Under the pieces are notes generated by a model, which saw only the letters and a list, made by a program, of their open reading frames with translations, ran no database searches and was not told the origin of the DNA. Shown here in pieces: positions 17,154-23,653 of a stretch of 39,396 nucleotides of DNA. The translations under genes and the position numbers were made by a program. This stretch comes from Chloroflexota bacterium (GTDB lineage Bacteria; Chloroflexota; Limnocylindria; Limnocylindrales; CSP1-4): the NCBI GenBank assembly GCA_003152995.1, contig PMBR01000072.1:13895-53290 (forward strand), in the 5' to 3' direction. Numbering within the stretch: position 1 is the stretch's first letter; every line of letters starts with the position of its first letter.

Positions 17154-18320
17154 ATGGCGACAACGCAGATCGGACGGGCCGGCAGCGACGAGGTATCGGG
17201 GGCGGTCCTCGGTCAGCCGTTGCTGGGACTGACTTTCGACGACGTCCTGCTCATCCCACAGTATTCCGAGATCCTGCCCGGCGACGCCAGCGTGAAGAGC
17301 CGCTTCTCGCGGCACATCTCCTTGAACACGCCGGTCGTCAGCGCGGCCATGGACACTGTCACCGAAGATCGGATGGCGATCGCCATGGCGCTCGAGGGCG
17401 GCATCGGCGTGATCCACAGGAACCAGGCGCCGGAACGCCAGGCCGAGGAGGTCTCGGCCGTTAAGGCGGCCGCGGTGCCCGCGGACGCGACGCTCGCCAA
17501 CGTCGGTTCCCGCGGGCGGCTGCGCGTGGCCGCGGCCGTCGGCGTTGGCCCGGACTCCATCGCCCGGGCCGAACTGCTGGTCCGTGCCGGGGTCGACGCA
17601 CTCGTGGTGGACACGGCCCACGGCCACACCCGGAACGTGATCGAGGCGCTGCGCCGCTATCGCGCCTCGTACGGAGACTCCATCGACCTCCTGGCAGGGA
17701 ACGTGGCCACGGCCGAGGGGACGGCCGCGCTGATCGAGGCCGGCGCGGATGGCGTCAAGGTGGGCATTGGGCCGGGCAGCATCTGCACCACTCGGATCGT
17801 GGCCGGTGTCGGAGTGCCGCAGCTCACGGCGATCTTGATGTGCGCTGCAGTGGCCGCCGAGCACGATGTGCCGATCATCGGCGACGGCGGTATCCGCTAC
17901 TCGGGCGACATCGTCAAGGCACTCGCCGCCGGAGCGGATTCGGTCATGTTGGGCCGGCTGCTGGCCGTCGCGGAGGAGAGCCCCGGCGAGGCGGAGCGCG
18001 TCGGCGGGCGCGTCGTCAAGGAATATCGCGGCATGGGTTCGCTCGGCGCGATGTCGGCGGGCAGCGACCGCTATCCGCAGGTCGACCGCCGCAAGCTCGT
18101 GCCCGAGGGCGTGGAGGCGCTAGTCTCCGTCGAGGGTCCGCTGGCCGGGATCCTCTACCAGCTCATCGGCGGCACGAAGGCGGGCATGACGTACTGCGGC
18201 GCCGAGTCAATCGCGGACCTGCGCGTCAAGGCGCGCTTCGTCCAGGTCACACATTCCGGGCAGATAGAGAGTCACCCCCACGACATCGAGCTGGCCCGCT
18301 CCGCGCCCAACTACCCGTAG
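17154..18320 (+). CDS. guaB: IMP dehydrogenase lacking the CBS pair
   Basis: A 388-residue enzyme that oxidises IMP to XMP with NAD+, the committed step of GMP synthesis. The barrel begins [18 protein letters not shown]; the NAD-site Asp is in VVDTAHGH (153). The phosphate and catalytic loop is [15 protein letters not shown] with Cys211; the IMP phosphate site includes [10 protein letters not shown]; the flap is [10 protein letters not shown]. The usual enzyme has about 490 residues with two CBS domains inserted after the VIHRN segment. Here residues 90-120 pass straight from [11 protein letters not shown] to [14 protein letters not shown], so the CBS pair is absent. Since all catalytic motifs are intact this is a natural short form and not a broken gene. 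GGAGG at 17145-17149 supports ATG 17154. Confidence 0.96.
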
Positions 18321-18389: not shown

Positions 18390-18414
18390 AACGCGCCGGC
18401 ATGGGGCGCCTGGT

Positions 18415-18442
18415 GAACCTTTTCGTCTCCGCGACTCGTCTG
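18415..18442 (+). promoter_or_regulatory. ECF-type promoter before the sigma factor gene
   Basis: GAACC at 18415-18419 (within TGAACC) and CGTCTG at 18437-18442 are 17 bases apart, matching the -35 GAAC and -10 CGTC pattern recognised by many ECF sigma factors. Transcription would start near 18449, some 59 bases before the GTG with GGAGGGG in the leader. This suggests the sigma factor activates its own operon. A second CGTCT at 18424 is too close to the -35 to work with it. Confidence 0.55.
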
Positions 18443-18507
18443 GACAGTTGAAACCCGACCGGCCCGGTCGGACGGCGAGGTCGCATTCGTTGGAGGGGCA
18501 GCTGATC

Positions 18508-19026
18508 GTGACCCAGCAGGACGCGCTCGAACGCGCCTCCGCCGAGTACGTCCTCGCCGCCGAAGCCGAAGCGGACGATGCGTACCGTCTGGCCGGGTAC
18601 ATCCTCGGGGACGCGGCAGAGGCGCAGGACGCCGTCCAGGAGGCGTCGATCAAAGCCTGGCGGAGCTGGTCGAGCCTGCGCGACCGCAATAGCTTCGGGC
18701 CCTGGTTCCAGCGGATCGTCGTCAACGTGTGTCGCGATCGGATGCGCCGCCACAGCACTCTGCGGATGGTCGAACTCGATGCCGCAGGCGAGGTCGAAAC
18801 GGATGACATCTTTCGCCGGATGGTGGCCGACGACGAGGTTGCGGGCGCCGTGGCGCGGCTCGACCGCGAGCATCGGATCGTGATCGTCCTGCGTTTCTGG
18901 CAGGACCTGGCCCTCGAACAGGTCGCGGATCGGCTGGACCTGCCTGTGGGGACGGTCAAGTCACGGCTCCACTACGCCCTCAAAGCGCTCCGAACGGAAC
19001 TGAGGCGGTCGAACGATGAGGCCTGA
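18508..19026 (+). CDS. RNA polymerase sigma factor, ECF (sigma-70) family
   Basis: A 172-residue alternative sigma factor. Region 2 runs from about DDAYRLAGYILGDAAEAQD through VQEASIKAWRSW and ends FQRIVVNVCRDRMRRH, with the core-binding and -10-reading helices. Region 4 spans VAGAVARLDREHRIVIVLRF to VADRLDLPVGTVKSRLHYAL, the helix-turn-helix for the -35 element. The frame is open from a TTG at 18448, but GTG 18508 has GGAGGGG (18492-18498) nine bases upstream and is preferred. The gene overlaps the next gene by 11 bp. An ECF-like promoter at 18415-18442 points to self-activation. It falls outside the ECF groups I could name with confidence. Confidence 0.93.
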   Translation: MTQQDALERASAEYVLAAEAEADDAYRLAGYILGDAAEAQDAVQEASIKAWRSWSSLRDRNSFGPWFQRIVVNVCRDRMRRHSTLRMVELDAAGEVETDDIFRRMVADDEVAGAVARLDREHRIVIVLRFWQDLALEQVADRLDLPVGTVKSRLHYALKALRTELRRSNDEA

Positions 19027-21613
19027 CGTGCCCGACGATCTCGAACTCGAACAGCGTTGTCGCGACTCTGTCGCAGGCCGGCGTCCGAATGCCCCCGCCA
19101 GTCTTCGCGAGTTCATCCGGCAAGTACCCACAGCGGACGCGCTCTCGGCTACGCCCGGGCCTCTCCGGCTCGCGCGCGCGGGCGAGCGGCCCAGGACGCG
19201 ACGCGGGGTTACTGGGATCGCAGCCGCGGCGGCTATCGTCCTTGCCATCGCCGGCGGGGCGGCCCTCTTCGCGGTCCTCGACCGCCGGGCGGAGTCTTCG
19301 CCTTCAGCTGCGGCGTCGGCGTCTTACGACTTCGAAACGGGCGGCTGGGGCTGGCGACGAGTGGGCGAGCCCGCTCCCGGCGCCGTTGCCGGCATCGCGA
19401 ATGGATACCTCGGCGAGTGCATCTCGAATGGGCTCCCCGCGGCGTGCACGTCGAAGGACGGGGTCAGCTGGGCGCTTCCGGCCGATCCTGCCGTACTGGC
19501 AGTCGATGGAGCCGCCCCGTTTGCAGGCTGGTCCGTGGCGCACGGCGCCGCCGGCTGGGTGGCCACGGGAACGATCGACCCGGGTACGTGGCACTCGGGC
19601 GACGGCGTCCACTGGTCGGCTGTGGCGGTCGATCTGCCGGGCCTGCAGAGGGCTCAAGTTCAGGCGTTGACCGACGGGTTCGCCATGGTGGCCCAGGTCT
19701 ACGACGGCCAGCAGACGGCCTACCCCGGTCAGCAGACGGCCTACCCCGGTCAGCAGACGACCACGAAGGTATTCTTCTCGACCGATGGCGCCGTCTGGAA
19801 GCCGCTAGATCTGGCGGCCGGCGTGACCCAACCGCAGCCTGGCGGGGCGATCGGTCTGGTGGCGACAAAGGGCGAGACGGTGAACGGCTCGCAGGTCAGC
19901 CGCGTCGTATCGTCGAGCGATGGCGTCAGCTGGACGGCACTCACGCTGCCGGACGGCGTGATGGGCCTTTCGTCCTCGATACACCTGGCCAGCGGCAAGT
20001 ACGTCGCCGTCGGCACCAAGACGTGGACGTACGGGGCGAAGACGCTGCTTACCTCCGCCGACGGCGTGATCTGGCAGGCCGGAACCGCGCCCAGCACCTG
20101 GCTGGATTCTCTGGCCGTGGTGGGGCCGCACATCCTGGCGATTTCGGTAATCCCGAACACGGCCCTTCCGGCCCTCTGGGAATCGACCGACGGCACGACC
20201 TGGCGGCGAATCGCCCTGCTGGACGGCAACCCGCTGAGCGGGACGCAGCTGGTCGCGCTTGGGGACCGAGTTGGGCTCTTCACAGGGTCCAAGCTCACCG
20301 TGGTCGGGGCCCCGCTGCCGGCAGGTTACCCGACGAGCCCGCCGCAGCCGACCTCCAGCCCGAGCACGGCCGCCTCGCCAACGGCTTCGCCCGCCCCGGC
20401 ACTCGTCGTGGGTGGCTGGCGCTGGCACGCGGTCAACCTCGTGCCCGACACCAGCACCGCCGTAGTCCGCGTTCCAAACGGCTACTTCGGGCGCTGCGGC
20501 ACTTCGATGTGCACCTCGCCGAACGGTTGGTCCTGGCACATCCCAGCCGATCCCGCAATCTTTGCGACGGACGGAGCCGCGCTGTTCTCGCCGTTGTCGG
20601 TGGCCCACCGGCCCGATGGCGGCTACGTGGTGAATGCCGGCGAGGGGGTCTGGTATTCGCTCGACGGCGTGCTCTGGAAGCCGGCGACGGTGCCCGCCGA
20701 CCCCGCCGGCTACCGCGCCGTCATGTACGGCGCGAGCGGTTTCACGCTGATCGGCTCGCCCGACGATGCGATCGGTGGCAAGAGCCGGCTGTACACGTCG
20801 CCCGATGGAGTCGCCTGGACGGCCCTGGGGATCGGGCCGATGGTCGGTCTCCTGGCTCAGGGCGACACCTCTGGCGGCATCCTCGACCTGACCGGGAAGA
20901 ACTCGGCAGGCGGCGCGTTCGGCTACTCGGCGGACGGTCGCACCTGGGTGACGGCCACGTTCCCAAAGAACGAATACGCGTCGACCCTCCCGTACCGGCT
21001 GGCGGACGGAAGCCTCGTCGCCCAGGGCGGCGGCGGCATCCTGCGCTCCACGGACGGCCGATCGTGGGTTCTCCTGAAGACCGGCTGGGTGGCCACTTCC
21101 ATTGCCGTTGCCGGTGACCGAATCGTCGCCATCGCCAACGGCTCGGGCAATGTCGGAACGGCCTGGGAGTCGTCCGACCACGGCGCGACATTCCACCAGC
21201 TGATGGCCGGCGCGAACCAGGTCTCCCAGTTCGGCGACCTCGTCCTGCTGCGTGCCGGCGGGGCGGCCTACGTCGGCGCGCCGCTCTCGGCTTCAGAAGG
21301 GCCCGGTACCACGCCGACCGCGACCGGGCTGCCGGGTGCGACCCCAGCTCCCACCCCCACGACGGTGCCCATGCCGGCCGGCGGGATTTCGAAGGACGAG
21401 GCTATCCGGATCGCGACGGCTACCATCCACCCCACGCCGGACGAACTGGCCAAGGTCTCTGCCTCGGCCTATTTGGACAGCCAGTACGGGCGCTGGATCT
21501 GGGGCGTGTCGTTTCTCGACTACTACGGCGGGCCGCTGAACGCGCAGGGCAAGTTCGTCGACATCGACTTCTTCACCGGCGAAGTCCTGGCCTCGGGCAA
21601 CTGGATCTCGTAG
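19016..21613 (+). CDS. Single-pass membrane protein with duplicated propeller-like ectodomain and PepSY-like end; probable partner of the sigma factor
   Basis: An 865-residue protein whose ATG lies inside the sigma factor gene (11-bp overlap), the usual position of an anti-sigma factor. Residues 1-63 are cytoplasmic and basic near the membrane; 64-88 form one transmembrane helix. The outer part holds two related halves, from about 108 and 466. Each opens with GGWxW, has NGYxGxC, then DGVSWALPADPAVLAVDGA or NGWSWHIPADPAIFATDGA, followed by many SxDGxxW units, suggesting beta-propellers. Pro/Thr/Ser linkers separate the parts. Residues from about 789 (ISKDEAIRIATATIHP to WIWGVSFLDYYGG and FFTGEVLASG) resemble a PepSY domain. 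No HxxxCxxC zinc motif is seen, so anti-sigma action is inferred from position and layout only. Confidence 0.78.
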   Translation: MRPDVPDDLELEQRCRDSVAGRRPNAPASLREFIRQVPTADALSATPGPLRLARAGERPRTRRGVTGIAAAAAIVLAIAGGAALFAVLDRRAESSPSAAASASYDFETGGWGWRRVGEPAPGAVAGIANGYLGECISNGLPAACTSKDGVSWALPADPAVLAVDGAAPFAGWSVAHGAAGWVATGTIDPGTWHSGDGVHWSAVAVDLPGLQRAQVQALTDGFAMVAQVYDGQQTAYPGQQTAYPGQQTTTKVFFSTDGAVWKPLDLAAGVTQPQPGGAIGLVATKGETVNGSQVSRVVSSSDGVSWTALTLPDGVMGLSSSIHLASGKYVAVGTKTWTYGAKTLLTSADGVIWQAGTAPSTWLDSLAVVGPHILAISVIPNTALPALWESTDGTTWRRIALLDGNPLSGTQLVALGDRVGLFTGSKLTVVGAPLPAGYPTSPPQPTSSPSTAASPTASPAPALVVGGWRWHAVNLVPDTSTAVVRVPNGYFGRCGTSMCTSPNGWSWHIPADPAIFATDGAALFSPLSVAHRPDGGYVVNAGEGVWYSLDGVLWKPATVPADPAGYRAVMYGASGFTLIGSPDDAIGGKSRLYTSPDGVAWTALGIGPMVGLLAQGDTSGGILDLTGKNSAGGAFGYSADGRTWVTATFPKNEYASTLPYRLADGSLVAQGGGGILRSTDGRSWVLLKTGWVATSIAVAGDRIVAIANGSGNVGTAWESSDHGATFHQLMAGANQVSQFGDLVLLRAGGAAYVGAPLSASEGPGTTPTATGLPGATPAPTPTTVPMPAGGISKDEAIRIATATIHPTPDELAKVSASAYLDSQYGRWIWGVSFLDYYGGPLNAQGKFVDIDFFTGEVLASGNWIS
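19709..19759 (+). repeat. 21-bp tandem repeat inside the membrane propeller gene
   Basis: Units at 19709-19729 and 19730-19750 are identical, with nine bases of a third. They encode QQTAYPG copies in a loop of the first propeller half. Confidence 0.88.
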
Positions 21614-21802: not shown

Positions 21803-23653
21803 GTGACTCCTGATCTGGAAGCGACCCTCAAGCGATTGCCCGACAGGCCGGGCGTGTACCTGATGAAGGATGCGCGCGGGACGGTGATCTACGTCGGCAA
21901 GGCCCAGAGTCTGCGAAGCCGCGTCCGGAGCTACTGGCAGAAGCAGACGGGCGGCGGCGAGAGCCAGCTGATCCGCAGCGTCATCGACAAGATCGCCGAC
22001 CTTGAATACACGATGACCGACTCGGTCAGCGAGGCGCTGCTGCTCGAGATCAACCTAGTCAAGCGGTACCGGCCGCGGTACAACGTCCGGCTCAAGGACG
22101 ACAAGAGCTACCCGTTCATCAAGATCACCCTGGCCGACGACTTTCCGCGGGTAGAGCGGACGCGCAAGCTCCCGGCCGACGGCAGCCGCTACTTCGGGCC
22201 GTACGCGTCGGCGAGCAGCGTCGACGAGGCGATGAATCTGATCCGGCGGCTCTTCCCGTTCCGCACGTGCACTCTGGACATCCACGAAGGCCGAAAGGCG
22301 ATCGAGCGGCCCTGCTTGCTGTATCACATCAAGCGCTGCCAGGCGCCATGCGTCGGGTACATCAGTAAAGCCGACTACCGCGCCCAGATCGAGCAGATCG
22401 AGCAGTTCCTCGAAGGCCGCCAGGAGGTCGTCGCCCGCGAGCTGACGCGCCAGATGCAGGCGGCTTCGGAGGCGACCGAATACGAGCGGGCGGGAGCGCT
22501 TCGCGACAAGGTGCGAGCCATCGAACGGACGATGGAGTCCCAGAAGATGGCGGCCCACTCCACGACCGAAGAAGACGTGCTGGGGCTGGCCCGCCAGGAT
22601 GCGCAGGCGGCCGTGCAGCTCTTCGCCGTCCGTGGCGGGAAGATGGTCGGGCGCGACGTGTTCCTGCTCGACGCCCCGCGCGAGTCGGACGACGTCACGG
22701 TGCTGGCCGGGTTCGTCCAGCAGTACTACAGCCGCGCCACCAGCATCCCGCCGGTCGTGCTCGTGCCCGCTCTCCCGGACGACGTGGCGGATCTGGAGGC
22801 GATGCTCACCGGACGTCGGGGAGCGACCGTCCACGTCCACGTCCCGCGGCGCGGCAACAAGCGCGAGCTCCTGGAGTTGGCAGCCCGCAACGCCACCGAA
22901 ACGCTGGCCCGAGAGCATGCCCGCTGGCTGGCGGACCACGGCAAGACGCTGGCCGCGCTCGAGGAACTTGCCGATGCCCTGGACTTGCAGGCCGCGCCGC
23001 TGCGGATCGAGTGCTACGACATCAGCAACTTCCAGGGGGCGCAGTCGGTCGGGAGCATGGTCGTCTTCGAGGACGGCCGGCCGCGGACGGGCGAGTATCG
23101 GCGCTTCCGCATCAAGACGGTCACGGGCGCCAACGACTACGCCAGCCATCAGGAGGTCCTGCGGCGCCGCTTCGTCCGGGCGAAATCGGGCGACGAGGGC
23201 AGCGAGGAGGAACTGCGCTGGCGGCTGCCGGACCTCGTCGTCATCGACGGCGGCAAGGGGCAGCTATCCGCGGCAAAGGAAACGCTCGACGACCTGGGCT
23301 TCCACGATCTGGCGGTGGTCGGGCTTGCGAAGGAGCGCGAGGAGATCTTCCTGCCCGGTCGCGACGACCCGGTGCTCCTCCCGACGACTTCGCCGGCGCT
23401 ATACCTGATGCAGCGGCTGCGCGACGAGGCCCATCGCTTCGCCATCACGTATCACCGTGCTCTGCGGGCAAAGGCCGCCACCCACTCAGCCTTCGACGAT
23501 CTGCCGGGCGTCGGTCCAAAGAGGCGGGCGGCGCTGCTGCGCGTTTTCGGCTCGGCGAAACGCGTGCGTGAGGCGCCGGTGGAGCAGGTCGCCGCCGTTC
23601 CGGGGATCGGACCGGCCCTCGCTGCTCGAATCAAGGCCGGTCTGGAGGGTTAG
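21803..23653 (+). CDS. uvrC: UvrABC excinuclease subunit C
   Basis: A 616-residue nuclease that makes both cuts around a lesion in nucleotide excision repair with UvrB. The GIY-YIG domain is at the N-terminus (PGVYLMKDARG then IYVGKAQSLRSRVRSYW, residues about 16-45). A Cys-containing stretch CLLYHIKRCQAPCVGYI follows. The UVR motif for UvrB binding is near residues 200-245 (EYERAGALRDKVRAIE). The RNase H-like second nuclease carries RIECYDISNFQG and LVVIDGGKGQLSAA. Two helix-hairpin-helix motifs end the protein (DLPGVGPKRRAALL and AVPGIGPALAARI). Length and order are normal. GTG 21803 is preceded only by a TAGAAT box, so translation is likely leaderless. Confidence 0.98.
   Translation: MTPDLEATLKRLPDRPGVYLMKDARGTVIYVGKAQSLRSRVRSYWQKQTGGGESQLIRSVIDKIADLEYTMTDSVSEALLLEINLVKRYRPRYNVRLKDDKSYPFIKITLADDFPRVERTRKLPADGSRYFGPYASASSVDEAMNLIRRLFPFRTCTLDIHEGRKAIERPCLLYHIKRCQAPCVGYISKADYRAQIEQIEQFLEGRQEVVARELTRQMQAASEATEYERAGALRDKVRAIERTMESQKMAAHSTTEEDVLGLARQDAQAAVQLFAVRGGKMVGRDVFLLDAPRESDDVTVLAGFVQQYYSRATSIPPVVLVPALPDDVADLEAMLTGRRGATVHVHVPRRGNKRELLELAARNATETLAREHARWLADHGKTLAALEELADALDLQAAPLRIECYDISNFQGAQSVGSMVVFEDGRPRTGEYRRFRIKTVTGANDYASHQEVLRRRFVRAKSGDEGSEEELRWRLPDLVVIDGGKGQLSAAKETLDDLGFHDLAVVGLAKEREEIFLPGRDDPVLLPTTSPALYLMQRLRDEAHRFAITYHRALRAKAATHSAFDDLPGVGPKRRAALLRVFGSAKRVREAPVEQVAAVPGIGPALAARIKAGLEG

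Follow-up and report, generated by a model that had tools for sequence, protein, structure and literature searches.

An ECF sigma factor gene that runs into the gene of an 865-residue membrane protein poses two questions: whether the second protein controls the first, and how a sigma factor came to be coupled to a membrane protein of this size. The pair lies in a stretch of 39,396 nucleotides from a Chloroflexota bacterium, referred to here as the window, between guaB and uvrC (17154–18320 and 21803–23653). The source assembly is a fragmented metagenome-assembled genome (MAG) of 140 contigs and 3.05 Mb that is 73% complete. We regard it as probable that the pair consists of an ECF sigma factor under positive autoregulation and a cognate anti-sigma factor in the membrane, built from a two-helix head and a propeller/PepSY sensor, with release of the sigma factor most likely by proteolysis, and that the head has been joined to a different sensor.

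The sigma gene and its promoter

The sigma gene occupies 18508–19026 of the forward strand, 172 codons from a GTG, and has Pfam matches to Sigma70_r2 (E 4.5e-16) and Sigma70_r4 (E 2.5e-14). Translation probably begins at GTG 18508 and not at TTG 18448 further upstream; a likely ribosome-binding site, GGAGGGG (18492–18498), stands 5' of the GTG, and the sigma starts of relatives are preceded by a similar ggaggggc. Group IV (ECF) sigma factors are recognized by having sigma2 and sigma4 only, with a linker of fewer than 50 residues. These are the only two domains that Pfam finds here, at residues 40–103 and 135–182 of protein P0001, with 31 residues between them. The nearest solved relatives of the protein are SigW, SigL and SigE.

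An AAC/CGT promoter ahead of the factor's own operon belongs to the definition of ECF sigma factors (PMC8103513), and a motif of this type precedes the operon at 18415–18442 on the forward strand, where the preliminary description had placed it. It consists of GAACC (18415–18419), a 17-bp spacer and CGTCTG (18437–18442). The exact motif occurs twice in the 3.05-Mb genome, each time closely 5' of an ECF gene followed by a gene for an Asp-box membrane protein; the second copy belongs to a pair on contig C67. At the syntenic locus of relatives, where the sigma orthologues are 60–71% identical, the motif is kept ahead of the sigma gene. The looser pattern GAAC-N15-18-CGTC lies upstream of 48 of the 127 sigma genes of the genus family, compared with a mean of 5.2 (maximum 11) in Markov-shuffled controls and 9 on the reverse strand, and its spacing is near-constant at about -150 relative to sigma2. 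Enrichment at a fixed distance, together with conservation in relatives, makes positive autoregulation likely, as for ECF factors generally (PMC8103513); the earlier reading of a self-activating factor is thus supported at the level of sequence. A regulon outside sigma operons was not found in a genome search with GAACCTT-N14-16-CGTC, which returned eight sites, three of them ahead of ECF genes; one of the other five is intragenic, and no convincing target follows any of them.

A twin-propeller protein with a predicted two-helix head

The downstream gene (19016–21613, forward strand) starts at ATG 19016 and shares 11 bp with the sigma gene, which ends at 19026, an overlap already noticed in the preliminary description. 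Its product is a predicted anti-sigma factor. A single membrane passage, a large outer part made of two similar repeat-rich halves and a PepSY-like end had been read from the letters, and an AlphaFold2 model of the protein alone (37 sequences, mean pLDDT 79) agrees on each point. It predicts a cytoplasmic head with helices at residues 8–19 and 28–35 (19016–19150), one transmembrane helix at 67–88 (19214–19279), which is also indicated by hydropathy, two beta-propellers at 106–433 (19331–20314) and 462–756 (20399–21283), and a confident alpha/beta fold at 793–864. The last coincides with the PepSY match at residues 791–859 (21386–21592), which at 22.6 bits (E 1.4e-4) falls below the cut-off of 24. 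The Pfam and NCBIfam scan of the protein gave no other match.

The two propellers are about 30% identical to each other (E 1e-16 to 1e-18) and contain 11 boxes of the SxDGxxW type. The best structural neighbors of the first are GH74 xyloglucanases (Z 16.6 over 269 residues, rmsd 3.4), followed by YCF48 (Z 14.9) and BT4663 (Z 14.8), and a PDB search with a profile built from the family hit GH74, sortilin and sialidases. On the strength of the modeled folds, these neighbors and the profile matches, the outer part is a predicted pair of Asp-box (BNR) propellers, a common fold that is uninformative on function. The likeness to GH74 xyloglucanases, enzymes marked by catalytic aspartates in a cleft between their propellers, is one of fold only; with them, sortilin and YCF48 the protein shares the fold and the Asp-box repeats, but it differs in being tethered to the membrane and in having no match to a glycoside hydrolase family in Pfam or NCBIfam. 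The Bacteroides hybrid two-component sensors BT4663 and BT4673 also have a twin-propeller sensor ectodomain, in their case linked to a histidine kinase output rather than to an ECF anti-sigma factor. In the first propeller, a loop modeled with low confidence contains an in-frame 21-bp tandem repeat of 2.6 copies (GQQTAYP; 19705–19759).

The cytoplasmic tail modeled by itself forms the same two helices as in the full-length model, and in this prediction, made without the sigma partner, the remainder is disordered. The zinc anti-sigma (ZAS) motif H-x3-C-x2-C is absent from the protein, as had been observed earlier. Two helices only, on a short cytoplasmic segment, place the head by prediction with the class II (CnrY-like) anti-sigma factors, whose first helix contacts sigma4 and whose second contacts sigma2 (PMC7406223, PMC4598750), and by analogy the same arrangement is probable here. 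CnrY, the partner of CnrH, likewise has a short two-helix head before its membrane helix, lacks the zinc motif and pairs with an ECF factor, a likeness of architecture, with no sequence similarity seen; however, CnrY senses via its partner CnrX, whereas the window protein carries a 775-residue ectodomain on the same chain. The class I proteins RseA, RskA and RsiW resemble it in being single-pass membrane proteins encoded next to their sigma factors, and in the known cases they are controlled by regulated intramembrane proteolysis (RIP). They have a three-helix bundle plus a fourth helix, averaging 101 residues (PMC7406223), compared with the two helices predicted here in the absence of the sigma partner. 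Class I domains have been associated with 72% of Chloroflexi ECFs, an unexplained figure (PMC7406223). Searches with a profile of the head sequence, and with Foldseek of the head model against the PDB, gave no useful matches.

The paired family and the proposed release of the sigma factor

The pair has many paralogs. There are 46 sigma-region-2 matches in the genome, and at least 35 of them precede a single-pass protein with its membrane helix at residue 35–90. Across the genus (146 distinct sigma genes from 21 genomes), 127 sigma genes are directly followed by a gene for a single-pass protein; 98 of the pairs overlap by 4 bp, and the membrane helix starts at a median of residue 63. Conservation of the pairing, the overlap and the length of the tail thus favors the anti-sigma interpretation proposed in the preliminary description, which had asked for such pairing in relatives. 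The zinc motif is present in 2 of the 127 proteins. The heads of 120 paralogs share [D/E]-L-E-x-R-L-R ... P-x-x-P-x-x-L as well as an arginine that precedes the membrane helix, and the window head shows this pattern (LExRLR...P..P..L). Covariation between sigma factor and head (APC-corrected mutual information, 120 pairs, Neff 80) gave scattered top pairs that are noisy and confounded by phylogeny, and the mirror-tree correlation of 0.60 indicates co-inheritance only. Most other sampled Chloroflexota of similar genome size have fewer sigma genes, and the genus is thus rich in them.

The single-pass proteins span 154–865 residues, the window protein being the longest found. Large ectodomains had been called unusual; in this family they are common. 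Pfam assigns Kelch repeats to 6 of 34 ectodomains scanned in this genome, BNR/sortilin repeats to 3, RCC1 to 2, and NfeD, a SecDF P1 head and PepSY to 1 each, and by motif count 7 have at least three Asp-boxes. The SecDF P1-head domain is an additional feature of the anti-sigma protein on contig C113. Most genomes of the genus also have a sister branch, whose members join the anti-sigma head and a membrane helix to an entire ClpP-like membrane protease of the NfeD1b type in one fused protein. This branch consists of L047:2622-4205:- on contig C68 of the same genome and 19 related loci, with sigma gene overlaps of 1–4 bp; two members were assigned by a Pfam scan and the other 18 from head sequence and length. 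Paralogs and relatives, in which the pairing, overlap, tail length and promoter are conserved, also support the earlier suggestion that the protein senses something outside the cell. The idea of an undescribed signaling system holds in part: this is not a lone system but one of at least 35 pairs with interchangeable ectodomains, and what is found in this genome only is the particular combination of sigma factor and double propeller.

In the proposed mechanism, the two-helix head would keep the sigma factor at the membrane until a ligand, polymer or protein on the Asp-box propellers, the PepSY end or both leads to its release. The free factor would then transcribe its own operon from GAACC-N17-CGTCTG and may act on other targets. 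Among known systems, the RsgI/SigI pairs of Clostridium thermocellum offer a parallel in their many paralogous pairs per genome, short heads, single membrane helices and large variable outer sensors, and they work through proteolysis by RseP and then ClpXP (PMC12203970). They differ in that SigI is not an ECF factor and in that the RsgI sensors are carbohydrate-binding domains rather than propellers. RsgI_N has no match in the window protein in Pfam or NCBIfam, and with an ECF partner the protein falls outside the RsgI family.

Release would most likely proceed through site-1 and then site-2 (M50) proteolysis, and RIP is the leading model. The main alternative is that the signal passes as a ligand-driven change of shape, as proposed for CnrYX. 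The CnrY-like two-helix head fits this idea, conformational release having been proposed for CnrY itself (PMC4598750). We consider it a minority possibility, since the genome encodes M50 proteases (best E 8e-45), two of them directly behind paralogous sigma/anti-sigma pairs (L042 on C79 and L059 on C113), and the sister branch has a protease fused to the head. An M50 gene is next in line in only 2 of the 103 pairs checked.

A mosaic gene at the variable guaB–uvrC locus

The guaB–uvrC interval is variable across the genus. Among 17 loci compared, it can be empty or can contain one or two sigma/propeller pairs or an orphan propeller gene. It is empty in G041, G046, G047 and G052, has one sigma/single-propeller pair in G037, G045 and G048 and two in G055, and in G044 has a sigma gene with its own 811-residue double-propeller protein. 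Orthologs of the window double propeller (48–80% identical) occur in G036, G050 and G038 (Chloroflexi bacterium fen_1069, the sole relative from one contig scan), where they are sigma-less and truncated in the head, and in G051 the second half of the double propeller alone remains. In G050 the orphan is followed by a sigma/single-propeller pair. Orthologous sigma/Asp-box pairs are found at this locus in six relatives altogether (G037, G044, G045, G048, G050 and G055).

Comparison with G050 divides the window gene in two. Window positions 18414–19051 are 75% identical in nucleotide sequence to the sigma/single-propeller genes of G050, and from 19154 on the match is to its orphan double-propeller gene, at 77%, which places the junction at 19052–19153 on the forward strand. 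At the protein level, similarity to the single-propeller heads extends to residue 39, and the join therefore falls in the disordered linker. By this comparison the window gene has a mosaic structure, the join falling after the second helix of the head and before the membrane helix. Its combination of sigma factor and double propeller occurs in this genome only, among 21, and the closest relatives pair the sigma factor with other Asp-box proteins. The fusion is likelier to be the derived state, because G036 and G051, which are more distant, show the orphan state; from this direction we infer that a head that binds sigma acquired, at the linker preceding the membrane helix, an ectodomain that stands alone in relatives as a gene with no sigma factor. 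Double Asp-box proteins of some 800 residues that are paired with a sigma factor also occur at other loci (L170 and L173, on G037:C6 and G044:C57), and double propellers may thus have had more than one origin.

A sharp nucleotide junction in a combination seen in 1 of 21 genomes, from a source MAG in 140 pieces, is also what a chimeric assembly might produce; the real genome would then resemble that of G050, in which the sigma/single-propeller genes and the sigma-less double-propeller gene are distinct. This seems quite improbable to us given that the 865-codon frame is intact, the head helices are complete, the junction falls in the linker and both the guaB and uvrC flanks are present. The conserved element that lies upstream of the orphan is absent from this assembly, as is a second double-propeller copy, with the qualification that the assembly is 73% complete. 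In addition, the architecture is found elsewhere, since the guaB–uvrC locus of G044 contains another sigma/double-propeller gene, distinct from that of the window. A chimera, if real, would remove the window pair and not the family.

Both parts of the pair are under purifying selection, with dN/dS relative to G050 of 0.30 for the sigma gene and 0.27 for the ectodomain. Between the ectodomains of two orphans the value is 0.29. Equal constraint where the sigma factor is absent argues for a role of the ectodomain that is independent of the adjacent sigma factor. Taken further, the ectodomain could mainly be a surface binding or enzyme-like protein (GH74-like or lectin-like) with a job of its own, and the sigma factor and head would control its expression only. 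The conserved orphans, the GH74 xyloglucanases as best fold matches and the restriction of convincing promoter copies to sigma operons are all consistent with such a role. It is nevertheless an unlikely account of the pair, as related heads on Kelch, Asp-box, RCC1 and NfeD proteins point to a head that reports on its ectodomain, and a glycoside hydrolase family match is lacking. The preferred reading remains that of a sigma factor held by a membrane sensor.

For the genus as a whole, the chances seem evenly balanced that these genes form a sensor-swapping repertoire. Each genome would have tens of ECF sigma/anti-sigma modules in which a shared two-helix head recombines in the juxtamembrane linker with Asp-box, Kelch and RCC1 propellers and even a membrane protease, and the window gene would be a recent swap at a variable locus. 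The literature searched, which excludes most subscription papers, yielded no description of Kelch or Asp-box propellers on an ECF anti-sigma factor. With tens of pairs in a genome of roughly 3 Mb, swappable sensors and a locus that can be empty, single, double, orphan or fused, this group would make a natural system for understanding how sigma pathways gain inputs and stay insulated from one another. Candidate functions would also follow for many proteins with Kelch or Asp-box repeats in uncultured Chloroflexota.
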